Shown here piece by piece: positions 3-39,998 of a stretch of 64,000 nt of DNA (positions within the stretch are counted from its first letter, which is position 1; each line of letters opens with the position of its first letter). The position numbers and the translations under genes are program-made. This stretch comes from Ignavibacteriota bacterium. GTDB taxonomy: Bacteria; Bacteroidota; Ignavibacteria; Ignavibacteriales; Melioribacteraceae. The stretch spans positions 62,001 to 126,000 of the forward strand of contig JABFGH010000002.1 of NCBI GenBank assembly GCA_013112585.1, read 5' to 3'. Under the pieces are notes generated by a model. The model ran no database searches, was not told the origin of the DNA, and saw only the letters and a list, made by a program, of their open reading frames with translations.

Positions 3-209
3 TTTGCAAATTTGACTGCCGGTCACATTGTAATTGGGGCATTACTCGGGTTGATATTTATTCTTAAAACTTACTTTGTAATTCCCGTATCGGTATCGTT
101 TGCCTTATTTATTTATCTATTAGAAATTTTAGTGGCTTTAATACAAGCATATATTTTCACAATGCTGTCCTCATTATTTATTGGGATGGCTGTACATCAA
201 GAACATTAA
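3..209 (+). CDS. atpB: ATP synthase F0 subunit a, C-terminal fragment (5' end outside window)
   Basis: The reading frame is open from the first bases, so the gene begins upstream of the window. The visible 68 residues start [12 protein letters not shown] and continue through two hydrophobic helices ending in MAVHQEH. This matches the last two transmembrane helices of F0 subunit a, which carries the essential Arg (not in view) and lines the half-channels against the c-ring. The internal TTG at position 12 is a Leu codon in the conserved FANLTAGH stretch, not a start. It is followed after 28 bases by atpE, the usual order of the F0 genes. Confidence 0.93.
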
Positions 210-237
210 ACGAATATAATTCATATAGGAGGAATCA

Positions 238-456
238 ATGGATTTCGCATTTTTAGCAGCAGGATTTGGAGCAGCATTAACAGTAATAGGCGGTGCTTTC
301 GGTATTGGTAAATTAGCCAGTTCAGCAATGGAAGCAAGCGGTCGTCAGCCTGAAGCTGCAGGTGATATTAGAACATCAATGATTATTGCTGCGGCACTTA
401 TTGAAGGTATTTCACTTTTCGCATTAGTAATTTGTATTCTGTTAGCTCTTAAGTAA
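238..456 (+). CDS. atpE: ATP synthase F0 subunit c
   Basis: A 72-residue hairpin of two transmembrane helices, typical of the c-ring subunit. Helix 1 contains the glycine-rich stretch GGAFGIGKLA, the polar loop reads SGRQPEA, and helix 2 has ALIEGISLFALV with the ion-carrying Glu at residue 56. Glu56 is followed by Gly-Ile and not by the Ser/Thr ligands of sodium-binding c-rings, so I infer proton coupling. A strong ribosome binding site (AGGAGG at about 228-233) precedes the ATG. It lies between atpB and atpF. Confidence 0.96.
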   Translation: MDFAFLAAGFGAALTVIGGAFGIGKLASSAMEASGRQPEAAGDIRTSMIIAAALIEGISLFALVICILLALK

Positions 457-504
457 AACTTGGCAGTTTAACTGCCGGTAATTTATAATTAAAGGAAAAG
501 ATAA

Positions 505-1047
505 ATGTACGCTTTTTCAAAAATTGCGTTTGTTGCTTTTGCCTCCGGCGAAGTCGGCGGACCGCTTGATGTGAACCCCGGTTTAATAATTTGGACTGTG
601 GTTACATTTGTAATTCTTCTATTTCTTTTGAAGAAACTTGCTTGGGGTCCAATACTAAAATCGCTTGGAGAAAGAGAAACTTTTATAAAAGATTCTCTTG
701 AAAAAGCTGAACAAGCACAAACAGAAGCAGAAAAACTTTTAGAAGAAAACAAAGCTAATCTTGCTAAAGCCGAAGATGAGGCTCAGAAAGTGATAGCTCA
801 GGGTAGAGAATATTCTGAAAAATTAAAAGACCAGATGCTTGAAGAGAGTAAGGCTGAAGCTAAAAAAATGATTGAGGATGCTAAGTCTGAAATTGAAGGC
901 AAACAAAAAGAGGCTTTTAATCAATTTAAAGAACAAGTTGCTGATATTGCTGTTCAAGCCGCTGAAAAAATATTGCGGGAAAATCTGGATAGCGATACAC
1001 AGAAAAAAATTGTTCAGAAATATATAGATGATTTGTCGAAGAACTGA
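505..1047 (+). CDS. atpF: ATP synthase F0 subunit b
   Basis: 180 residues. After a short N-terminal segment there is one transmembrane helix (about residues 28-45, IIWTVVTFVILLFLL), then a long charged helix rich in Lys, Glu, Gln and Ala, the coiled-coil stalk that holds F1 against F0. The C-terminus (ADIAVQAAEKILRENL) matches the delta-binding end of the family. Length fits a normal b subunit. It ends 2 bases before atpH, so translation is probably coupled. Confidence 0.95.
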   Translation: MYAFSKIAFVAFASGEVGGPLDVNPGLIIWTVVTFVILLFLLKKLAWGPILKSLGERETFIKDSLEKAEQAQTEAEKLLEENKANLAKAEDEAQKVIAQGREYSEKLKDQMLEESKAEAKKMIEDAKSEIEGKQKEAFNQFKEQVADIAVQAAEKILRENLDSDTQKKIVQKYIDDLSKN

Positions 1048-1049
1048 GT

Positions 1050-1586
1050 ATGAGTAATTTTAATATTACATCCCGCTACGCAAAAGCGCTAATCGAGAAT
1101 TCTGAAGAAAAGAATATTTTTGAAAAAGTTTCTTCTGATGTTGAATTGATCTTTAATACTCTCAGTAAATCAAAAGAGCTGCGAGTTACAATGTCAAGCC
1201 CGGTTGTTAATTCGGAAAAGAAGATTGAGATATTAACGGAAATATTTTCAAATCATATTTCTCAAGAGACATTAAATTTTTTAACGCTCGTTGTAAATAA
1301 AAAACGGGAAGATTTACTCTTTGAAATTGTTGCGAGATTTATTGAGTTAAAAGATAAAAAACTTGGCTTGGTTAATGTCCATGTAAAAAGTGCTGTTGAC
1401 TTTGATGAATCACAAAAAGAAATAATGAAATCAAAACTTGCTGAATTTACTAATAAAAAAGTGAGAGCAAGTTTTGATACAGATGAATCTTTGATTGGCG
1501 GATTTTCAGCAAGGTTCGGAGACACAGTTTTAGATGGATCAGTAAAACAGCAATTAAAAAATTTAAAGAAGCAGCTTTTAGCTTAA
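1050..1586 (+). CDS. atpH: ATP synthase F1 subunit delta
   Basis: 178 residues with the family layout: a helical N-terminal domain beginning ITSRYAKALIENS, a central segment LTLVVNKKREDLLFEIVARF, and a C-terminal region with LIGGFSARFGDTVLDGSVKQQL, close to the delta/OSCP signature (uGG-x-u-x-x-G-D-x-x-u-D-x-S). It joins the b stalk to the top of F1. Operon position between atpF and atpA is canonical. Confidence 0.95.
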   Translation: MSNFNITSRYAKALIENSEEKNIFEKVSSDVELIFNTLSKSKELRVTMSSPVVNSEKKIEILTEIFSNHISQETLNFLTLVVNKKREDLLFEIVARFIELKDKKLGLVNVHVKSAVDFDESQKEIMKSKLAEFTNKKVRASFDTDESLIGGFSARFGDTVLDGSVKQQLKNLKKQLLA

Positions 1587-1628
1587 TTAAGAAAAATAAA
1601 TATTGAATAAATTTTTAGGGATTAAAAA

Positions 1629-3179
1629 ATGGCTGAAGTAAGACCGGATGAAGTATCATCAATATTACGTAAGCAATTATCAGGTTTTGATAGTGAAGTT
1701 GATATCTATGATGTGGGTACTGTGCTGCAAGTTGGTGACGGTATTGCAAGAGTTTACGGTTTATCGAATGTGATGGCGAGTGAGCTTTTAGAATTTCCAA
1801 ATGATGTAATTGGAATGGTACTTAATCTTGAAGAAGATAGCGTCGGCTGTGTACTTTTTGGTGAAAGCACGCTGGTAAAAGAAGGCGATACTGTAAAGAG
1901 GACTAAACGCGTTGCTTCTTTCCCTGTTGGAGATAAATTATTAGGCAGAGTTGTTGACCCGCTTGGAGAGCCATTTGACGGTAAAGGTGCCGTACAGTCT
2001 GAAAAGTTTATGCCTATCGAACGTAAAGCACTTGGTGTTATTGCACGGCAGCCAGTAATAGAACCAATACAAACGGGTATAACTGCTATCGATGCCATGA
2101 TTCCAATCGGCAGGGGACAGAGAGAATTAATTATCGGCGACAGACAAACCGGTAAAACTGCTGTTGCCGTTGATGCAATAATTAATCAAAAGTACACACA
2201 CACTGAAGAAGCAAAAAAACGGGGTGTTGATCCTGTGTATTGTGTTTATGTTGCAATCGGGCAAAAAAGCTCAACAGTTGCTCAAGTAGTTGCTAAACTT
2301 GAGGAACATGGTGCAATGGAATATACCACTATAGTTAATGCCCCTGCATCTGTGCCTGCTCCGCTTCAGTTTATCGCACCATATTCCGGCGCAACTCTTG
2401 GCGAATATTTTAGAGATAACGGAAAGCATGCTCTCTGTATATATGATGATTTATCTAAACAAGCTGTTGCTTACAGAGAGTTATCATTGCTGTTGAGAAG
2501 ACCGCCGGGACGTGAAGCATATCCCGGAGATGTATTTTATCTTCATTCCCGTTTACTTGAAAGAGCCTCGAAGTTAAGTGATGAGTTAGGAGGCGGAAGT
2601 TTAACCGCACTACCAATTATCGAAACGCAGCAAGGCGACGTTTCCGCATACATTCCTACAAATGTTATTTCTATTACTGACGGACAGATTTATCTGGAAC
2701 CAAATTTATTTAACGCGGGTGTTCGTCCTGCAATTAACGTGGGTATCAGTGTATCCCGTGTGGGCGGTAATGCTCAAATTAAGGCGATGAAAAAAGTTGC
2801 AGGGTCATTAAAATTAGATTTAGCGCAGTATAGAGAACTTGAAGCATTTGCTAAATTCGGTTCTGATCTTGATAAAGCAACATTAAAAACTTTATCGAAA
2901 GGTGAAAGACTTGTTGAATTACTAAAGCAAGGTCAGTATGAACCTGTTCCTGTTGAAAGACAAGTTGTTAGTGTTTACACAGGTGTTAATGAGTTCTTGG
3001 AATCGATACCTATTGCTGATATAAAACGATTTGAGAAAGAATTTTTAGAATATGTTGATGTTAACTATCCGCAGATATTTGAAAATATTTTATCTTCTAA
3101 AAAATTAGATGATAATACGACGGCAGAAATTAAAAAAGCTGTTGAAGAATTTTTGAATAAATTCAAACGAAGTGAATAA
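1629..3179 (+). CDS. atpA: ATP synthase F1 subunit alpha
   Basis: 516 residues, full length. The nucleotide-binding P-loop GDRQTGKT is at residues 170-177, preceded by [11 protein letters not shown]. Further on are the conserved [13 protein letters not shown] and [26 protein letters not shown] blocks and the [10 protein letters not shown] segment containing the arginine that reaches into the beta active site. The subunit binds nucleotide without hydrolysing it and forms the alpha3beta3 head. A weak AGGG ribosome binding site lies before the ATG. The partner atpD is not in this operon. Confidence 0.98.
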
Positions 3180-3188
3180 AATTAGATT

Positions 3189-4076
3189 ATGGCAACTCTA
3201 AGAGATATAAAAGCAAGAATTACAGGAGTTAAAAATACTCAGCAGATTACAAAAGCTATGAAAATGGTTTCTGCTGCAAGGCTGAGACGCGCCCAGGAAA
3301 ATATTATTAAGGCTCGTCCATATTTCAGAAAAATTTCCGAAGTACTTGATAATCTCCTTTCTATTGAAAAAAATATTGATAATCCTCTTTTTGTTGAGAA
3401 GCCTGTTGATAAAATTGCAGTTATTATAGTTACTTCCGATAGGGGATTGTGCGGAGCTTTTAATACGAATGTTATAAGAAGAACAGAAGCGCTTTTAGAT
3501 GAAGAATATAAAGAACAGTTAAATAATGATAATGTAACTTTATATTGTGTCGGTAAAAAATGCAGTGATTATTTTTCGAAAAGGAATTACAATATCGCAG
3601 AAAAACACATCGGTATATTTTCTAATCTAAAATTTGAATTTGCCGCAAAACTGGTAAATGATTTAACGATGAAGTTTTTAAATGGAGAATATGATAAAGT
3701 AATTTTAGTTTATAATCAGTTCAAGTCTGTTATGCAGCAGAATTTAACAGTTGAGCAATTGCTGCCGCTTCACCCGAATGAGCAGAAGGTTGATGAAGAA
3801 GCTGAAATTCAAACTGAATTTATTTATGAACCGGATAAACCAAGCATTATTGATATACTGGTGCCCAAGCACCTTAAAGCACAGATGTGGCGTGCGTTAT
3901 TAGAATCGTATGCGGCAGAATTAGGAGCCAGAATGACAGCGATGGATATGGCAACCGAGAATGCATCGGAATTAATAAGATCGCTGAAATTAACCTATAA
4001 TAAGGAACGCCAAGCTGCAATTACCAACGAAATTTTAGAAATTGTATCAGGCGCAAACGCGCTGAAAAGTAATTAG
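3189..4076 (+). CDS. atpG: ATP synthase F1 subunit gamma
   Basis: 295 residues. The N-terminus LRDIKARITGVKNTQQITKAMKMVSAARLRRAQ and the C-terminus ALLESYAAELGARMTAMDMATENASELI are the two halves of the rotor coiled coil, both highly conserved in gamma. The central Rossmann-like part has VIIVTSDRGLCGAFNTNV. It turns inside F1 and couples rotation to catalysis. It is the last ATP synthase gene here. The next gene, ffh, follows after 50 bases, where other lineages would have atpD and atpC. Confidence 0.97.
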   Translation: MATLRDIKARITGVKNTQQITKAMKMVSAARLRRAQENIIKARPYFRKISEVLDNLLSIEKNIDNPLFVEKPVDKIAVIIVTSDRGLCGAFNTNVIRRTEALLDEEYKEQLNNDNVTLYCVGKKCSDYFSKRNYNIAEKHIGIFSNLKFEFAAKLVNDLTMKFLNGEYDKVILVYNQFKSVMQQNLTVEQLLPLHPNEQKVDEEAEIQTEFIYEPDKPSIIDILVPKHLKAQMWRALLESYAAELGARMTAMDMATENASELIRSLKLTYNKERQAAITNEILEIVSGANALKSN

Positions 4077-7984: not shown

Positions 7985-8743
7985 ATGAAATTAGTAATAC
8001 CTCAAAATATTTATTCAGCATTTTTTGCTTTATCACTTGATGATAAACAAAAAGAAAATGTAATCTCAAAACCCTCTTCGTTAATTACAAAATCTATTCA
8101 ATCGGGCGAAGCTGATATTGCATTAATCCCTTCGCTGGATTTAATTAACAACCGCGAACTATTTGTATCACAAAAAATTGCTATATCGTTCGACGGATTT
8201 TTATCGAATGCTTACCTCTACTTTAAACCAAACCAAAATGATTTTAAAAATTTATTTTTACAGGGTGATGTTTCAGCCAACGAAGTTATCCTAAGTAAAA
8301 TTATTTTTTCTGAAATGTATGATTCGCAAGTTGAAATAAAACTAGATACTGAAGAAACAAAATTGGAAAAATTTAATTATTTAATTTGCGGCGATGAAAA
8401 TTATAATAAAAAATTAATGAATAAAGGATTAAGCTTCGCTGATGAAATAGCCGAGTATTTAGATTTTCCCTACACCAATTATCTCTTAGCTGCTAAAAAT
8501 GAAAACGCATTAACCGAGTTTACCCAATCACTGACTGATTTAGATAAAAAAGTTGAAGATAATATTGGAAACTACCTCGATAAAATGCAATATCAGAAAG
8601 AACTTACCGAAACCTTAAAAGCCAATATTAACAGTGTTTATTTTGAACTGACCGACAACGAAATTGATGGATTAAATGAATTGCTTCGACTTCCGTTTTT
8701 CCATGGAATAATCGAAGAGGTTGTAGAAATTAATTACGTCTAA
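7985..8743 (+). CDS. MqnA/MqnD-like protein (menaquinone biosynthesis / substrate-binding fold)
   Basis: 252 residues, no signal peptide. The stretches SGEADIALIPSLDLI and IAISFDGFLSNAYLYF, followed near the C-terminus by a helical part with ELTDNEIDGLNELLRLPFF, resemble MqnA (chorismate dehydratase of the futalosine menaquinone route) in order and spacing. The match is distant. The central segment lacks a clear SGLPFVFA motif (here LDFPYTNYLLAA), so enzyme activity is uncertain. No other futalosine-pathway gene is nearby. It could be a diverged solute-binding-like paralogue. It starts just after the rplS terminator and so probably has its own promoter. Confidence 0.55.
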   Translation: MKLVIPQNIYSAFFALSLDDKQKENVISKPSSLITKSIQSGEADIALIPSLDLINNRELFVSQKIAISFDGFLSNAYLYFKPNQNDFKNLFLQGDVSANEVILSKIIFSEMYDSQVEIKLDTEETKLEKFNYLICGDENYNKKLMNKGLSFADEIAEYLDFPYTNYLLAAKNENALTEFTQSLTDLDKKVEDNIGNYLDKMQYQKELTETLKANINSVYFELTDNEIDGLNELLRLPFFHGIIEEVVEINYV

Positions 8744-8814
8744 TAGAAGTTTCTTTAACATTAAGCATAGTAATACTTAACAAACGGATCATTAATTATT
8801 TTCGGAGGTAGTTC

Positions 8815-9225
8815 ATGCATCATGTAGAAATAAATTATTTTGCCGTTTTACTTAGCGGTGTTCTTGCAATGGTCATTGGGTCATTATGGTACGGACCTTT
8901 GTTCGGAAAGACTTGGATGAAGGAAGAGGGGTTTACGGAGGAAGATTTAACCAAAGATTTTAATTCCGCTAAAACTTATGGCTTAACATTTATTGCAGCC
9001 TTGGTTGTAGTTTATGTTTTAGCCAGAATTCTTGGGTATATTGGGGCGGAAGGAATTGTGGAGGGCTTAAGAGTTGCTTTCTTATGCTGGCTGGGATTTA
9101 TCGCTGCTACAAAAATGACAAACTATTTGTTTGAAAGAAAGACACTAAAATTGTTTTTGATAAATGCATTTTATCATTTAGTTAATTTGTTAATTGCATC
9201 AGTTATATTAAGCGTTTGGAAATAA
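8815..9225 (+). CDS. DUF1761 family membrane protein
   Basis: 136 residues with about four hydrophobic helices. The N-terminal VLAMVIGSLWYGPLFGKTWMK and the later WLGFIAATKMTNYLFERKTLKLFLINAFYHL are characteristic of DUF1761, whose function is unknown. A good ribosome binding site (CGGAGG, about 8 bases upstream) supports the ATG. Its 3' end overlaps the converging capA-like gene by 52 bases. Confidence 0.8.
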   Translation: MHHVEINYFAVLLSGVLAMVIGSLWYGPLFGKTWMKEEGFTEEDLTKDFNSAKTYGLTFIAALVVVYVLARILGYIGAEGIVEGLRVAFLCWLGFIAATKMTNYLFERKTLKLFLINAFYHLVNLLIASVILSVWK

Positions 9226-10376: not shown

Positions 10377-11567
10377 TTAAACTGAAATATGAGAAACCGT
10401 AAGTACATTCGGGTTGCTTCTAATCGTTTTCAGCATTTCATTGGTTGCGGCACTTTGCAGTTTCATGGTGCAGAGGGCAACAATACCATCTTCAAAAATT
10501 ATATTTTCAATTTCTTCAATGTTTATATCACCCATTCGTAATACATCAAATACCGATGCGAGCACACCCGGTTTATCGAAGTGCTTTACTGCAAGCTGGT
10601 AAAGGTGATCCGGCATTACAGCTTTATTAACCCAATGAGCAATTATTCCGCTATTAATGTATTTCATTATTATATCAACTGTTTCTTGTGCAACGGCATC
10701 TTGTGCCTGTTTTGTAGAAGCGCCAATATGATGGGTAATGTAAACGTTTTTTTGTCCCTGAAGTTTTGAACTCACCGAACCGGTTTTACCTTCAGGTTCA
10801 TCGGCAAAAACATCTAAAGCAACTCTAAGATTTTTTTGTTCAATGGCTTTAATTAATGCATCTTCATCAATTATTTCTGCACGCGATGTATTTATCAACA
10901 ATGCACCGTCTCTCATGTAGCTGAACATTTCATCATTAAACAATCCTTTTGTTTGAGGTGTTGAAGGGAGGTGAATTGAAACAACATCGGCGATTGGAAG
11001 AATTTGATCCATCTCTGAAAAGTCTTTAATAGCAACACCTTCAATTCTTCTTATATCTTTTCCGTAAACATTCATTCCAAAAGCTAAGGCGCGTTTTGCT
11101 AATTCTTTCCCGATGTTACCAACACCAATTATAGCAAGGGTTTTACCGTATATACCATCAGCCTTAGAATATTCCGCTTTATTCCAAACACCGTTGTTAA
11201 AGTCACTTACATTATCCGGTATTCTTCTGTCGGCGGAAATAATCAATCCCATTGCAAGTTCGGCAACGGCAATAGAGTTTTTACCGGGGCAGTTAGCAAC
11301 ATAAATACCTTTTTTATTTGCCGCTGCTACGTTAATGTTATTATATCCTGCACCGGCTCTGATAATAAGATTTAGATTTTTTGCAGCTTCAATTGTAGCG
11401 GCATTTACTTTGGTGGACCTCACAACTAAAATATCTACATCTTCTACAACATCGGAAAGATCGTTTTCACCAAGTTTCTCTTGGCAGATAACTTCAATTT
11501 CAGCATCGCGTAATTTTTGAATATGCTCTTCAGGAAACTTATCGGCAATCAATACCTTAACTTTCAT
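10377..11567 (-). CDS. serA: D-3-phosphoglycerate dehydrogenase-like 2-hydroxyacid dehydrogenase with ACT domain
   Basis: 396 residues. The substrate domain opens MKVKVLIADKF and has LIIRAGAGYNNINV. The NAD-binding Rossmann motif is GVGNIG. The catalytic trio appears as NTSRAEIIDE (Arg), DVFADEPE (Glu) and THHIGASTKQAQ (His). A C-terminal domain beginning DKPGVLASVFDVL is an ACT domain, as in serine-regulated SerA. It would oxidise 3-phosphoglycerate, the first step of serine synthesis. No serB or serC is adjacent, so another 2-hydroxyacid substrate is possible, but the ACT domain favours SerA. Confidence 0.87.
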   Translation of the reverse strand: MKVKVLIADKFPEEHIQKLRDAEIEVICQEKLGENDLSDVVEDVDILVVRSTKVNAATIEAAKNLNLIIRAGAGYNNINVAAANKKGIYVANCPGKNSIAVAELAMGLIISADRRIPDNVSDFNNGVWNKAEYSKADGIYGKTLAIIGVGNIGKELAKRALAFGMNVYGKDIRRIEGVAIKDFSEMDQILPIADVVSIHLPSTPQTKGLFNDEMFSYMRDGALLINTSRAEIIDEDALIKAIEQKNLRVALDVFADEPEGKTGSVSSKLQGQKNVYITHHIGASTKQAQDAVAQETVDIIMKYINSGIIAHWVNKAVMPDHLYQLAVKHFDKPGVLASVFDVLRMGDINIEEIENIIFEDGIVALCTMKLQSAATNEMLKTIRSNPNVLTVSHISV

Positions 11568-33784: not shown

Positions 33785-35578
33785 ATGAAATCGATAATAT
33801 TTTTATTTTGTTTTTTTATAATCCAATCCGCAGCTGTTAGCCAAAGCAGTTGGATTAGGATCAATCAATTAGGCTACCAAAATGAATCAGTTAAAGTGGC
33901 GGTATTTGCATCTAAGGAAAAAGTTAACTTAGAAGAGTTTCAACTAATTAATGCCGCTAATGAAAATGTTGAATTGAAAAGCGGGAAGGTAAGTGCCTAT
34001 GGAGAATACGCCGCTTTCAAAACTACTTTTCGACTTGATTTTTCTGAGTTTGAAAAGACCGGTGAATATTATCTCACAGCCGAAGGAATTAAATCACCCA
34101 AGTTTAATATTAACAGCAATGTATATGACGGCACCGCTGATTTTCTGCTGAATTATATGCGTCAGCAGCGATGCGGTTATAATCCATTTTTAAAAGATTC
34201 TTGTCATACTGAAGACGGCTTTATTGTAGATAACCCTGAAAATGATTCGGCTTATGTTGATGTAATGGGCGGCTGGCATGATGCTTCGGATTATCTTCAA
34301 TATTTAACTACTTCGGCAAATGCCACTTACCAAATGCTATTTGCTTACAAAATGAATCCTAATGAATTTAAAGATGAATTTGATAAAGATGGTAATCCAT
34401 CGAGCAATGGAATACCCGATATTATTGATGAAGCAAAATGGGGCTTAGATTGGCTGATAAAAATGAATCCGGATTACGGTGTAATGTATAATCAAATTGC
34501 GGATGATAGAGACCATGCCGGATATAGACTGCCGAATAATGACTCCGTTAATTACGGCAAGGGGTTTGAAAGACCTGTTTATTTAATAACAGGTAAGCGT
34601 CAAGGATTAGCACAATATAAAAATAGAACCACCGGTGTATCATCCTCTGCGGGAAAATTTGCTTCGGCATTTGCATTGGGTTCAAGTGTGCTGAAAGAAT
34701 ACTACCCGGAGTTTGCTCAGTTAATTTCTGCAAAAGCTGTTGAGGCTTACAAGTATGCAAAATCAGATATTGGTGTTACACAAACAGCTTGTAATGTATC
34801 TCCATATTTTTATGAAGAAGATAATTATGTTGATGATTTAGAATTAGCAGCCGCGCAATTGTACAAAAACACCGGTAATGATGAATATCTAAAAGAAGCA
34901 GTTGAGTGGGGAAGTGTTGAACCGACAACTCCATGGATGGGCTTAGATACAGCACGGCATTATCAATGGTATCCGTTTGTAAATTTAGGTCATTATCTTT
35001 TAGCAAGTGAAAATGAAAACGAACACTCGGGGTTGTTTAAGTATTATTTGGAAAAAGGATTAAACAAAATTTATAATAGAGGAAAGAACAACGCATTTTT
35101 ATACGGTGTGCCATTTATTTGGTGTTCAAATAATCTTGTCGCGGCAGCATTAACTCAAGCAAAACTTTATTCTGAATTAACAGGCAGCAGAAAATTTGAG
35201 GAGATGGAAGCATCGTTAAGAGATTGGCTTTTCGGATGCAACCCGTGGGGGACAAGTATGATTGTTGAACTTCCAATAGACGGCGATTACCCCGAAGATC
35301 CTCATTCATCATTATGGGTACTCAACCAATACCAAACTACAGGCGGACTTGTTGATGGTCCTGTTTACGCTAAAATATTCAATAGACTCCGGGGGCTGAG
35401 GCTTATTAACGAAGATGAATATAAAGAGTTTCAATCCGACCTGGTTATTTATCACGATGATAACGGCGACTATTCAACAAACGAGCCGACAATGGATGGT
35501 ACTGCATCACTTTCTTTTTATTTATCTTCTCTGGAAAAAGAGGGTAAAGCAATGGCTCTTAAAAAAAAAGAACAATAA
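33785..35578 (+). CDS. Glycoside hydrolase family 9 enzyme (N-terminal Ig-like domain)
   Basis: 597 residues with a signal peptide (about 1-20, ending SAAVSQ). Residues 22-110 form the CelD-type Ig domain (IRINQLGYQNESVKVAVFAS). The (alpha/alpha)6 catalytic domain has the Asp pair in GGWHDASDY near 161-169, GCNPWGTSM and PHSSLW late, and the proton-donor Glu in YSTNEPTMDG near 566. GH9 includes endoglucanases and also exo-beta-glucosaminidases; the surrounding chitin genes favour an amino-sugar substrate. The frame stops in LKKKEQ just after a run of nine A residues, and a NodB domain continues in the next frame. Confidence 0.9.
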   Translation: MKSIIFLFCFFIIQSAAVSQSSWIRINQLGYQNESVKVAVFASKEKVNLEEFQLINAANENVELKSGKVSAYGEYAAFKTTFRLDFSEFEKTGEYYLTAEGIKSPKFNINSNVYDGTADFLLNYMRQQRCGYNPFLKDSCHTEDGFIVDNPENDSAYVDVMGGWHDASDYLQYLTTSANATYQMLFAYKMNPNEFKDEFDKDGNPSSNGIPDIIDEAKWGLDWLIKMNPDYGVMYNQIADDRDHAGYRLPNNDSVNYGKGFERPVYLITGKRQGLAQYKNRTTGVSSSAGKFASAFALGSSVLKEYYPEFAQLISAKAVEAYKYAKSDIGVTQTACNVSPYFYEEDNYVDDLELAAAQLYKNTGNDEYLKEAVEWGSVEPTTPWMGLDTARHYQWYPFVNLGHYLLASENENEHSGLFKYYLEKGLNKIYNRGKNNAFLYGVPFIWCSNNLVAAALTQAKLYSELTGSRKFEEMEASLRDWLFGCNPWGTSMIVELPIDGDYPEDPHSSLWVLNQYQTTGGLVDGPVYAKIFNRLRGLRLINEDEYKEFQSDLVIYHDDNGDYSTNEPTMDGTASLSFYLSSLEKEGKAMALKKKEQ

Positions 35579-35628
35579 GTAATGGCGCTATAATCCGGAG
35601 CGATAAAAGTGAAAAAGTAATTTATCTT

Positions 35629-36258
35629 ATGTTCAGCGGCGGCGATTATGCTGATGGATGTTCAACAATTGTTGACGTTCTAAATGAACACAATGTTAAA
35701 GCTCACTTCTTTTTTACCGGTGATTTTTATAGAATGAAAAAGGAATGCGTTCAAAAATTAATTAATGATAATCATTACCTCGGTGCTCATTCTGATAAGC
35801 ATTTACTTTATGCTTCATGGGAAAATAGGGATGAGCTTCTGATTACTAAGGATGAATTTGTAGAAGACCTTAGTAATAATTATAAGGAAATGGAGAAGTT
35901 CGGAATCGAAAAGGATGATGCTCTATACTTTATGCCGCCTTATGAATGGTACAATCAAACTATTGCTGATTGGACAAATGAATTAGGTCTTCAGCTAATT
36001 TCATTTACCCCCGGAACAAGGTCTAATGCCGATTATACAATTCCTTCAATGGGAGACAGATATGTAAGCAGTGAGGAAGTTTACAACAGCATAATTAATT
36101 TTGAAAAAGAAAACATGTATGGGTTAAATGGATTTCATTTGTTTCTTCATGCAGGTACACATCCAGAACGAACTGATAAATTTTATAATAAACTTGATAA
36201 ACTTTTAAGTGAATTGAAAACGCGTGATTACCAATTTAAACTGCTGAATGAGAAATAA
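35629..36258 (+). CDS. NodB-type polysaccharide deacetylase domain, probably the frameshifted C-terminus of the GH9 protein
   Basis: 209 residues from the first ATG, but the frame is open and protein-like back to 35563 (GAIIRSDKSEKVIYLMFSG), and the upstream part supplies the first NodB strand. Motifs are FSGGDYADG (in the place of TFDDG), HSDKH (zinc His pair), MPPYEW (RxPY-like) and LFLHAG. It would remove N-acetyl groups from chitin oligosaccharides. No start codon or ribosome binding site lies at the domain's natural beginning. A one-base slip in the A9 run at 35561-35569 would fuse it to GH9. Confidence 0.75.
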   Translation: MFSGGDYADGCSTIVDVLNEHNVKAHFFFTGDFYRMKKECVQKLINDNHYLGAHSDKHLLYASWENRDELLITKDEFVEDLSNNYKEMEKFGIEKDDALYFMPPYEWYNQTIADWTNELGLQLISFTPGTRSNADYTIPSMGDRYVSSEEVYNSIINFEKENMYGLNGFHLFLHAGTHPERTDKFYNKLDKLLSELKTRDYQFKLLNEK

Positions 36259-36272
36259 TAAATGGAATGTGT

Positions 36273-37511
36273 ATGACTAAGAATAAAATTCAATATTGGA
36301 TTTATATTTTAATACTCTTCCTAATAAATGGTGAGCTTACTGCGCACTCATCGAATTTATTAAGTGATGCCGATACAAATAAAATTGCCGGCTTTAGAGC
36401 GTCAAGAATTCTTTCAAGTTATCCCAACAATACATTTCCTGAACCGGAATATTGGGAACAGGTCGGTGATCAAATGTCGGCAAAGTTTGATGGCTATAAG
36501 CCGGGCGGAGTTTGGATAGTCAGCATATATCTTTCTGATCCGCTTGGATATACACTGCTTAATTTTCCAAACCCTACCGGGGCAGAATATGATTCAATAA
36601 TTTTTCGTTCCATCGATCAGAATGAAAATTATTTAAACCATTTCGATACTACGGGAGTTAAGGTGTGGCTTCAGGTTGAACCCGGTGGAGCGGATATTGA
36701 CACACTCATTAGTCTGGTACTTAATCGCTACAAGCATCATAGTTGTGTGCAAGGATTTGGCGTTGATGTGGAATGGTATGAAACCTATAACTACACCGGC
36801 GGTAAAAAAGTAAATGATACAGAAGTACAGCGATGGGAAGAAAATGTAAAAGCAGTGGATTCCGGTTACACGCTTTTTCTTAAACATTATTCACAAAGCT
36901 GGATGCCTCCAAATTATCGTGGAGAAATTATTTTTATTGATGATAGCCAGGATTTTAATTGGTACTCAAATCCGTTTAATGGGATGATAACAGAATTTAA
37001 AAGCTGGGGAAATCAATTTTCACCTAATCCGGTCGGATTCCAGATTGGATACCCGAATGATCAAAACTGGTGGGGTTTGTTTGATGATCCGGCAAAAACT
37101 ATTGGTGATGAACTGATTGCAAATATTCCAAATATTGCCGGTATTTACTGGGTCGATTTTACAGTTATAAGTACCTTTCCTCCAACTGCGGTTGAATTGG
37201 AAAACATTCCGCCAAATGATTTTTATTTGAGTCAAAATTTTCCTAATCCGTTTAATCCTGCTACAAAAATTCAATTTACCATCCCTAAAAATGTAGAGAC
37301 GTTTGGAAAAACGTCTCAAGTTAATTTAACAATTTTCGACCTACTCGGTAACGAAATTGCAGAATTAGTTAATGAATATAAACAGCCCGGCACTCACGAA
37401 GTTGAGTTTGATGCCTCGGGCGGAAGCCGGGAGATATCAAGCGGAATTTATTTTTATCAACTGAAGATTGGAAATAAAAAATTATCTAAGAAGATGATAC
37501 TTTTGAAATAA
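36273..37511 (+). CDS. GH18-like secreted protein with T9SS sorting domain
   Basis: 412 residues from ATG 36273 (GGA at 36264-36266); an in-frame ATG at 36267 would add two. A signal peptide (about 5-24) leads to a domain of about 300 residues. VQGFGVDVEWYE near 163-174 resembles the end of the GH18 DxxDxDxE motif, reduced to DVE, and VWLQVEPGG precedes it. Tryptophans and tyrosines abound, as in sugar-binding clefts. The last 85 residues are a T9SS type A sorting domain (SQNFPNPFNPATKIQF, FDLLGNEIAELV, SGIYFYQL). Hydrolase activity is uncertain. Surface export is likely. Confidence 0.75.
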   Translation: MTKNKIQYWIYILILFLINGELTAHSSNLLSDADTNKIAGFRASRILSSYPNNTFPEPEYWEQVGDQMSAKFDGYKPGGVWIVSIYLSDPLGYTLLNFPNPTGAEYDSIIFRSIDQNENYLNHFDTTGVKVWLQVEPGGADIDTLISLVLNRYKHHSCVQGFGVDVEWYETYNYTGGKKVNDTEVQRWEENVKAVDSGYTLFLKHYSQSWMPPNYRGEIIFIDDSQDFNWYSNPFNGMITEFKSWGNQFSPNPVGFQIGYPNDQNWWGLFDDPAKTIGDELIANIPNIAGIYWVDFTVISTFPPTAVELENIPPNDFYLSQNFPNPFNPATKIQFTIPKNVETFGKTSQVNLTIFDLLGNEIAELVNEYKQPGTHEVEFDASGGSREISSGIYFYQLKIGNKKLSKKMILLK

Positions 37512-38831: not shown

Positions 38832-39998
38832 ATGGTTCAACAAACCGTAATAAAAAACTGTTATTTATACAGTGATAGTAAAAAACAAAAATTATCAAAC
38901 ATCTTAATTGAAGATGGAATAATTAAATCTATAGATTCCACAAATGAAAACATCAATGACGATAGAGCCGTTCAGATTGATGCGGAAAATAAAGTTGTTA
39001 TCCCGGGCTTGATAGATGTACATATTCAAGGCGCAGGCGGAGCAGATATTTTGGATAACGGTGAAGAGGCTTTAATTACAATCTCAAAAACATTGGCTGA
39101 AACGGGAACGACATCTTACCTTGGGACAACAGTGGTAAAACCGGAAGAAGACAACCGGCATTTACGTTTAGCCGAATCATATTTTAACAAAAAAGTAATG
39201 GGTGCGGAATTAATTGGAATTCATCTCGAAGGACCTTTTATCAATCCAATTAAAAAGGGCGGCTTAAATCCGGCAGGTATTTATGAAGCCGGTATGCACG
39301 GCGGGTTGGAGGGAATACTAGATGCAGCAGGTGATTCACTTAAAATGATGACGATTGCGCCGGAGTTGGAAGGGAACGAAAAAATAATTAAAGACCTCCG
39401 TGAAAAAAATATAATCGCCGCATTTGCTCATTCCGATGCAGATTATGAGCAAACGAAATTAGGTTTTAAAATGGGTATTAATCACGTAACGCATTTATAT
39501 AATGCAATGCGCACAATGACTCATCGCGAACCCGGACCAATACCGGCAATTTTTGAAGAGGAAAATATCCCGGTTCAGATTATCAGCGATGGACATCATA
39601 TTAATGGAGCTATGGTAAATTTAGCCTACAGAAATATCGGCATTGACAGATGCATCTGTATAACCGATGGCATGCACGGAATTGGTCTGCCGGAAGGAAA
39701 ATATCTTTATAATGGAAGGGAATATATTTCTAAAGATGGTGCTGCAAAATATTTGGATGGAACTTTAATTGGTTCTACTATGAGTCTATTGAACATCGCA
39801 TTAAAATTTATGCAATTTACAAATTGCAGTTTTGAAGATGCAATAAACAGCGTTACAATAAATCCGGCAAAACTTTTAGGATTAGATGATAAGAAGGGAA
39901 ACATTAAAACCGGTGCTGATGCTGACCTGGTTATCCTAAATGAAGATTACACGGTGGATAAAACAATTGTTCACGGTGAAGTTGTTTATTCAAAATAA
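38832..39998 (+). CDS. nagA: N-acetylglucosamine-6-phosphate deacetylase
   Basis: 388 residues, full length. Amidohydrolase motifs are in order: VIPGLIDVHIQGAGG, GIHLEGPFINPIKKGGLNPAG (metal Glu and substrate loop), AHSDADYEQT, HVTHLYNAMRTMTHREPG, ISDGHHING and the catalytic Asp region TDGMHGIGLPEG. It removes acetate from GlcNAc-6-phosphate to give glucosamine-6-phosphate in the cytosol. It follows the NagX-like gene by 23 bases and converges with the SIS-domain gene over a shared terminator. Confidence 0.96.
   Translation: MVQQTVIKNCYLYSDSKKQKLSNILIEDGIIKSIDSTNENINDDRAVQIDAENKVVIPGLIDVHIQGAGGADILDNGEEALITISKTLAETGTTSYLGTTVVKPEEDNRHLRLAESYFNKKVMGAELIGIHLEGPFINPIKKGGLNPAGIYEAGMHGGLEGILDAAGDSLKMMTIAPELEGNEKIIKDLREKNIIAAFAHSDADYEQTKLGFKMGINHVTHLYNAMRTMTHREPGPIPAIFEEENIPVQIISDGHHINGAMVNLAYRNIGIDRCICITDGMHGIGLPEGKYLYNGREYISKDGAAKYLDGTLIGSTMSLLNIALKFMQFTNCSFEDAINSVTINPAKLLGLDDKKGNIKTGADADLVILNEDYTVDKTIVHGEVVYSK

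Follow-up and report, generated by a model that had tools for sequence, protein, structure and literature searches.

Candidate programmed −1 recoding joining GH9 and NodB domains in a Bacteroidota gene family

A gene family that encodes a GH9 hydrolase followed by a NodB domain very probably uses programmed −1 recoding. Its representative in the stretch of DNA analysed here (64,000 nucleotides from an Ignavibacteriota bacterium, hereafter called the window) is probably a single recoded gene of the form GH9-linker-NodB whose own slip site is productive. Normal decoding would stop at a TAA codon after a run of nine A nucleotides (A9) to yield a short product, which is a secreted GH9 enzyme. Some decoding would slip by one base on A9 to yield a fusion of GH9 with a NodB domain of the CE4 type, which would be about 825 residues long and would export NodB on the GH9 leader. 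Slippage in the window is well supported by sequence comparison. The analysis shows the reading frames, the lack of a start codon, the fused form in relatives, the recurrence of the −1 arrangement, selection on NodB in shifted relatives and the motif statistics, and from these we infer that slippage takes place in this cell; its rate and mechanism are likewise inferred. The family looks like one that is recoded via two routes, namely −1 frameshifting by ribosomes under stimulation from a Shine-Dalgarno (SD) sequence, and slippage along an extended run of A.

Reading frames and slip site in the window

The GH9 open frame (positions 33785 to 35578, + strand) encodes 597 amino acids and includes a hydrophobic N-terminal leader (judged by eye), a CelD_N Ig-like domain and a Glyco_hydro_9 catalytic domain. 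Its match to PF00759 scores 237 bits against a cut-off of 27.7. The letters at the junction are CTT AAA AAA AAA GAA CAA TAA, wherein the A9 run (35561 to 35569, + strand) provides three AAA codons in the 0 frame and is the presumed slip site. The 0-frame TAA stop (35576 to 35578, + strand) lies two codons past the run, and so the letters and open frames confirm the earlier note, which had placed the GH9 stop at 35578, directly after A9. The run also contains a heptamer of the X_XXY_YYZ form, A_AAA_AAA (35563 to 35569, + strand), which is followed by a G.

The −1 frame opens inside the A run and encodes a NodB/CE4 domain of 229 amino acids (35569 to 36258, + strand) that matches Polysacc_deac_1 (PF01522) with an E value of 3.5e-17 and 63 bits against a cut-off of 23.1. 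This frame could be entered from a transcript that has gained a base, or by a −1 ribosomal shift. The first ATG of the frame (35629 to 35631, + strand) codes for residue 21, and no ATG, GTG or TTG occurs in the frame upstream of 35629. In a predicted model of the domain (mean pLDDT of 96.4), strands are formed by residues 2-4, 7-10 and 17-24. This ATG would fall within the central strand and is an unlikely start, because a protein initiated there would lack the first two strands of the predicted fold and half of its central strand. The frames and the model thus agree with the earlier claim that NodB lies in the −1 frame with its first strand before the first ATG. The claim that a one-base slide gives a continuous GH9-linker-NodB protein of about 820 residues is likewise supported, and is close to the fusion length given above.

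A GAGGG sequence (35540 to 35544, + strand) lies 18 nucleotides 5′ of the heptamer, which is outside the spacing counted here for an SD-like stimulator (a range taken from PMC4066793, in excerpt), and there is no GGAGG in the 40 nucleotides 5′ of the run. The window belongs to a genome of 4.94 Mb (77 contigs, 99.97% complete) that has 257 matches to A9 on its two strands, or about 2.6e-5 per position and strand. At this genome-wide rate, A9 would be found by chance in a given linker of 40 nucleotides about once in 1000.

Homologues and the state of their junctions

A GH9 scan of species genomes provided 80 named loci, which are the best 80 of 289 relatives. The best GH9 relatives of the window among these carry the record names Melioribacteraceae, Bacteroidetes and Ignavibacteriales. 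Additional loci came, at E 0.001, from the window's family (GH9 in 67 of 79 genomes) and from the genus to which Siphonobacter aquaeclarae belongs (6 of 6, with a close GH9 in 3), and, at E 1e-150, from the family of that species (70 of 222). More GH9 sources were the window's class (51 of 391), the Siphonobacter order (52 of 390), the phylum (36 of 394) and the family of genome G906 (35 of 120). The G906 family includes Pontibacter, as the GH9 loci of two of its genomes are identical to named Pontibacter loci.

Loci were picked by open-frame length, such that short rows that looked unfused were taken first and fused rows were taken in part, and 11 Siphonobacter-order rows with less than 47% identity were left out of the fetched set. 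Homologues were retained if the match started before query position 60 and reached position 560. Merging of copies with identical inner GH9 DNA reduced 228 rows to 202, and removal of L001, which duplicates the window, gave the 201 distinct homologues that also form the tree set.

Because unfused rows were favoured in sampling, the counts of junction states, including the 36 of 201 that are shifted, are not frequencies. A single open frame crosses the junction into NodB in 105 of the 201 homologues. In 36 (window included), NodB adjoins GH9 but is shifted to the −1 frame, with an A run at the junction. NodB was scored as a separate gene in 6, and is absent from the fetched DNA (80-4000 nucleotides past GH9) in 53. 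Thus, GH9 homologues with NodB in a single frame, for which the earlier note had suggested a search, do exist. Some of the 105 fused rows have flaws, which are a contig end in L009, L019, L023 and L176, Ns in L010, and a stop within GH9 in L161 (G181:C1). A further fused gene, L193 (G043:C22:12500-16650), has a stop within NodB and was kept out of the count. L193 and L161 are apparently decaying or mis-sequenced copies.

Five of the six NodB genes scored as separate are real, whereas the one scored for L171 is part of another GH9 gene, a fused one that lies 8.5 kb away. One of the five, L155, is adjacent to GH9 in the −1 frame, but its NodB starts 87 nucleotides past the GH9 stop and was counted as separate under a rule of 80 nucleotides.

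Two designs of shifted junction

All 36 shifted junctions are −1 shifts, and a slip-prone sequence at the frame overlap is conserved across species at every one of them. The length of the A run is bimodal, with 6 nucleotides in 24 loci, 9 in nine and 10 in three, and no run of 7 or 8 occurs at these 36 junctions. The loci with six A nucleotides (A6) read xxA AAA AAG in the 0 frame, and in 23 of the 24 this is followed directly by TAA or TAG. Every A6 locus also carries GGAGG 6-13 nucleotides 5′ of A_AAA_AAG, and in 20 of them the distance is exactly 10 nucleotides. Synonymous codon use would be expected to produce GGAGG at the observed places in about 4.5 of the 24 loci, a post hoc expectation that is based on the places where GGAGG was found and treats loci as independent. 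As judged by these sequence features, the 24 A6 relatives have the layout of SD-stimulated −1 ribosomal frameshifting.

The loci with A9 or A10 are different. GGAGG is in range in only 3 of these 12, all from Siphonobacter, and is lacking in the other 9 of the 12 loci, among which the window is counted. The difference between A9/A10 and A6 loci gives a Fisher p of 2e-6, on counts that, like the others given here, are not independent in phylogeny. Among the 105 fused loci, an A run of at least 6 is present in 32, a run of at least 9 in 3, and GGAGG in the linker in 17, yet none of the 105 has GGAGG within 20 nucleotides 5′ of an A6.

Two fused genes carry an in-frame A9 just before the NodB core strand (L006 near 4805 and L036 near 5754), and L006 is sister to the window's small clade. 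Slippage at these in-frame runs would truncate the fusion.

Mechanism of the shift

RNA polymerase slippage is the likelier mechanism in the window, where it would produce transcripts with one extra A. Bacterial RNA polymerase undergoes high-efficiency slippage at nine As or Ts (PMC5009743, in excerpt), and the A9 run of the window has the homopolymer length for this process. It is rather unlikely that the same recoding is achieved in the window by ribosomal −1 frameshifting on A_AAA_AAA. A ribosomal slip would make use of the right form of heptamer, which the window has, and would align it with the 24 relatives that carry A_AAA_AAG and GGAGG. However, the run in the window has nine nucleotides rather than six, and the window carries neither an SD-like element in range nor a 3′ structure.

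Single-sequence folding with 60 shuffles indicates that there is no RNA structure 3′ of the junction in the window (z of +0.6 and +1.4). The same approach yields weak folding on average for the A9/A10 group (mean z of −0.3 and −0.8). For the A6 group, 3′ folding is weak on average (mean z of −0.8 for 45 nucleotides and −1.0 for 70 nucleotides). A few A6 loci, such as L185 and L227, fold strongly 3′ of the junction, but most do not.

The lysine tRNAs of the hosts might also be relevant to the choice of route. A tRNA-Lys(CUU) pattern matches the window genome, in addition to the UUU one, and is found in 7 of 12 A9/A10 genomes versus 2 of 24 A6 genomes (Fisher p 0.0025, confounded by lineage). 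Five A9 genomes lack a match. Since the pattern is matched in 58 of 75 genomes from the window's family, a few of these matches not being tRNA-like, lineage may explain the association. The presence of two lysine tRNAs has been suggested as the reason that Thermus dnaX uses slippage and not frameshifting (PMC5009743, in excerpt).

A strict pattern for the 16S tail matched 4 of 13 genomes, of which three are A6 hosts and one is an A10 host, and the misses may reflect absent or variant 16S sequences. The anti-SD sequence is occluded in the ribosomes of Bacteroidia, where prfB often keeps an internal SD sequence for a +1 shift (PMC8710568, in excerpt). The SD-like layout of the A6 loci stands out against this background.

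Selection and history of the second frame

Eight hand-chosen pairs of shifted loci were used to estimate dN/dS. For NodB, the ratio is 0.04-0.12 in seven of the eight pairs, and the eighth (L030/L040) has saturated dS. For GH9 the ratio is 0.03-0.07, and six of the seven pairs show tighter constraint on GH9 than on NodB. Thus, the second frame is under protein-level selection in the shifted relatives, through which the result bears on the window. One pair, L172/L173, keeps its run at a dS of 1.2 for GH9 and 2.8 for NodB; both members have A10 and belong to the same taxonomic order as the window.

On a FastTree phylogeny of GH9, the shifted state requires 11 changes, at least 9 of which are forced by starred branches, and the state persists within clades. 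This tree is midpoint-rooted, and so its root does not distinguish gain from loss of the shift. An A6 locus, L183, sits in a Pontibacter-like group in which A9 is the run at all other shifted junctions. The repeated and long-kept −1 shifts in several lineages support the earlier reading that slippage could give rise to both short and long forms.

It is improbable, but deserves consideration, that the A run of the window recently gained or lost a base, which put NodB out of frame, and that any long product is a functionless leak. Long A runs are prone to indels, and the window is a singleton in its clade, represented by one genome. It groups on the GH9 tree with L002 and L004, its two nearest GH9 relatives, and neither of these has NodB within 4 kb 3′ of GH9. 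Because NodB is missing beside GH9 in both, the shift in the window could be a step toward loss of NodB. However, the arrangement of the window is seen again in three Siphonobacter genomes, in L172/L173, in the Pontibacter-like group and in the A6 group. Moreover, the NodB frame of the window is fully intact and shows no excess divergence. This last point comes from a pairwise comparison, since regressing NodB identity to the window against the corresponding GH9 identity was uninformative. Against 28 fused homologues, the NodB identity of the window is on average 9.9 points below its GH9 identity, and the same gap is seen in 310 fused-fused pairs with GH9 identity of 60-69% (drawn from 1500 random pairs). 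The window NodB is therefore no more diverged from fused homologues than those are from one another.

Separate NodB genes

Each of the five truly separate NodB genes begins at a start codon of its own and encodes a hydrophobic leader. In L155, the gene has its own leader and an ATG that overlaps the GH9 stop. The earlier note had considered whether homologues might carry separate, well-started NodB genes. Such genes exist in 5 of 201 homologues, but with their own start and leader they are unlike the arrangement in the window. The separate NodB gene of L003 (about 8254 to 9093) lies 2.7 kb 3′ of GH9, and its leader ends in FNFC, which by eye resembles a lipobox. This protein is perhaps a lipoprotein.

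We considered that NodB in the window might likewise be a separate gene, expressed from a non-canonical start codon or by reinitiation past the GH9 stop. The distance from the GH9 stop to NodB is short enough for coupling, and the five separate genes, including the overlapping arrangement in L155, give some precedent. However, in 34 of the 36 shifted loci the NodB frame offers no ATG, GTG or TTG ahead of its core strand, and a product made in this way would miss the hydrophobic leader that is present in all five separate genes. Comparison of start codons and leaders therefore makes a separate NodB gene very unlikely.

Reliability of the assembly

We scanned 464 kb of the window genome (the window plus 20 stretches) for runs of exactly 7, 8, 9 or 10 A or T. 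Both strands were scanned, such that each run is counted twice, and open frames of at least 200 codons were considered. Runs inside open frames number 171 of 626 for 7 bases, 48 of 226 for 8 bases, 5 of 24 for 9 bases and 0 of 2 for 10 bases. One run each of 7, 8 and 9 bases looks like a frameshift, and none of 10 bases does. The 9-base case is the junction in the window, whereas the 7- and 8-base cases appear by eye to be neighbouring distinct genes. With one such case at each of these lengths, the assembly is not generally prone to homopolymer errors.

Homopolymers are a classic site of error, but given how rarely 7-9-base runs elsewhere in the same genome look like frameshifts, a sequencing or assembly error at the junction is highly improbable.

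The A8 at a two-frame junction is in L265 (G000:C13:1-20000, minus strand), where the run starts at position 11072 of the reverse complement. An APS-kinase-like frame is overlapped there by a frame that by eye resembles a short membrane segment and then another CysC-like kinase. Although frameshift-like by frame, this junction is probably formed by two tandem genes.

Protein function and gene neighbourhood

The metal-binding histidines of NodB (HxxxH; H74 and H78) are invariant in all 37 aligned sequences. Motif 1 of CE4 enzymes is TFDD and includes the catalytic Asp. In the window, motif 1 is at positions 35629 to 35658, and the position aligned by eye with the motif-1 Asp of PdaA is Ser or Thr in 37 of 37 NodB sequences. 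This replacement makes the deacetylase activity of the domain unsure. The predicted fold matches active CE4 deacetylases and also a CE4 pseudoenzyme. On sequence grounds, the NodB domain of this family would be either an unusual CE4 variant or a pseudoenzyme.

The genes nearby include nagA (38832 to 39998, + strand), which codes for N-acetylglucosamine-6-phosphate deacetylase (TIGR00221 at 312 bits, cut-off 225.65) and lies in a cluster for amino-sugar catabolism. Other neighbours include a DUF5009/HGSNAT-type acyltransferase (for which the NagX model is far under its cut-off), a SIS sugar isomerase, an MFS transporter and a ROK kinase. Given nagA and these other genes, breakdown of N-acetylglucosamine polymers or oligomers is a reasonable prediction, and GH9-NodB might have a role in the breakdown of amino-sugar polymers. 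Production of GH9 with and without NodB from one message would determine how much of each domain is made relative to the other. The gene that follows NodB (36267 to 37511) encodes a protein with a sorting tail for type IX secretion (Por_Secre_tail), in which no further Pfam domain scores above cut-off.

Comparison with known recoding systems

The SD-like element of Escherichia coli dnaX has a spacing of about 10 nucleotides. The slip site of this gene is A_AAA_AAG (PMC5009743, in excerpt), and the 24 A6 relatives resemble it in having the same heptamer together with a 5′ SD-like element. The GH9-NodB genes differ from E. coli dnaX in that the shift would yield the longer product and add an enzyme domain. 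In addition, E. coli dnaX has a 3′ stem-loop, whereas 3′ structure at GH9-NodB is weak in the folds made, and the window differs further by having A9 and no SD-like element in range.

Transcriptional slippage in Thermus thermophilus dnaX is similar in its nine-base homopolymer, its two products and the two lysine tRNAs of the host. The setting of the window, with a tRNA-Lys(CUU) match, no GGAGG and no structure, resembles that proposed for T. thermophilus dnaX (PMC5009743, in excerpt). However, the long product is in-frame in that system, whereas the long GH9-NodB product needs the slip. Bacteroidia prfB shares with this family an internal SD-like sequence near the shift site and a taxonomic group in which the anti-SD is occluded, but it uses an autoregulatory +1 shift at CUU UGA, whereas GH9-NodB would use a −1 shift at an A run that joins two enzyme domains.

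Two other systems offer partial parallels. The tssM gene of Citrobacter rodentium (PMC4256274) is a chromosomal gene reported to give two length variants by transcriptional frameshifting, but the protein is unrelated and the case is described as restoring a single interrupted gene, not as a family-wide pattern. An archaeal alpha-L-fucosidase (PMC8037382) is a glycosidase whose full product is reported to require a −1 shift, although it is archaeal and belongs to another enzyme family.

We found no earlier report of GH9-NodB frameshifting in the literature searched. The main text of the GeneTack survey mentions no deacetylase or cellulase, and its sole 'glycos' match is a DNA glycosylase. The part searched of a 2016 review has no mention of deacetylase, 'glycos', fucosidase or chitin.

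Implications

We tentatively propose that GH9-NodB genes have moved repeatedly between in-frame fusion, SD-driven −1 frameshifting and long-A slippage, and that the route follows the lysine tRNAs of the host. On this tentative proposal, the ribosomes of Bacteroidota might read the internal SD sequence despite an occluded anti-SD and thereby set the ratio of the two secreted enzymes.

To our knowledge, −1 recoding that adds a whole enzyme domain has been described for few bacterial genes that are chromosomal and non-mobile. Gene callers that are blind to frameshifts would split such genes and hide a GH9-CE4 enzyme. The family offers natural replicates by the dozen, in two site designs and with in-frame controls, which would make it testable why and how recoding is used. 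It also bears on how Bacteroidota ribosomes, whose anti-SD is occluded, may use internal SD-like sequences.
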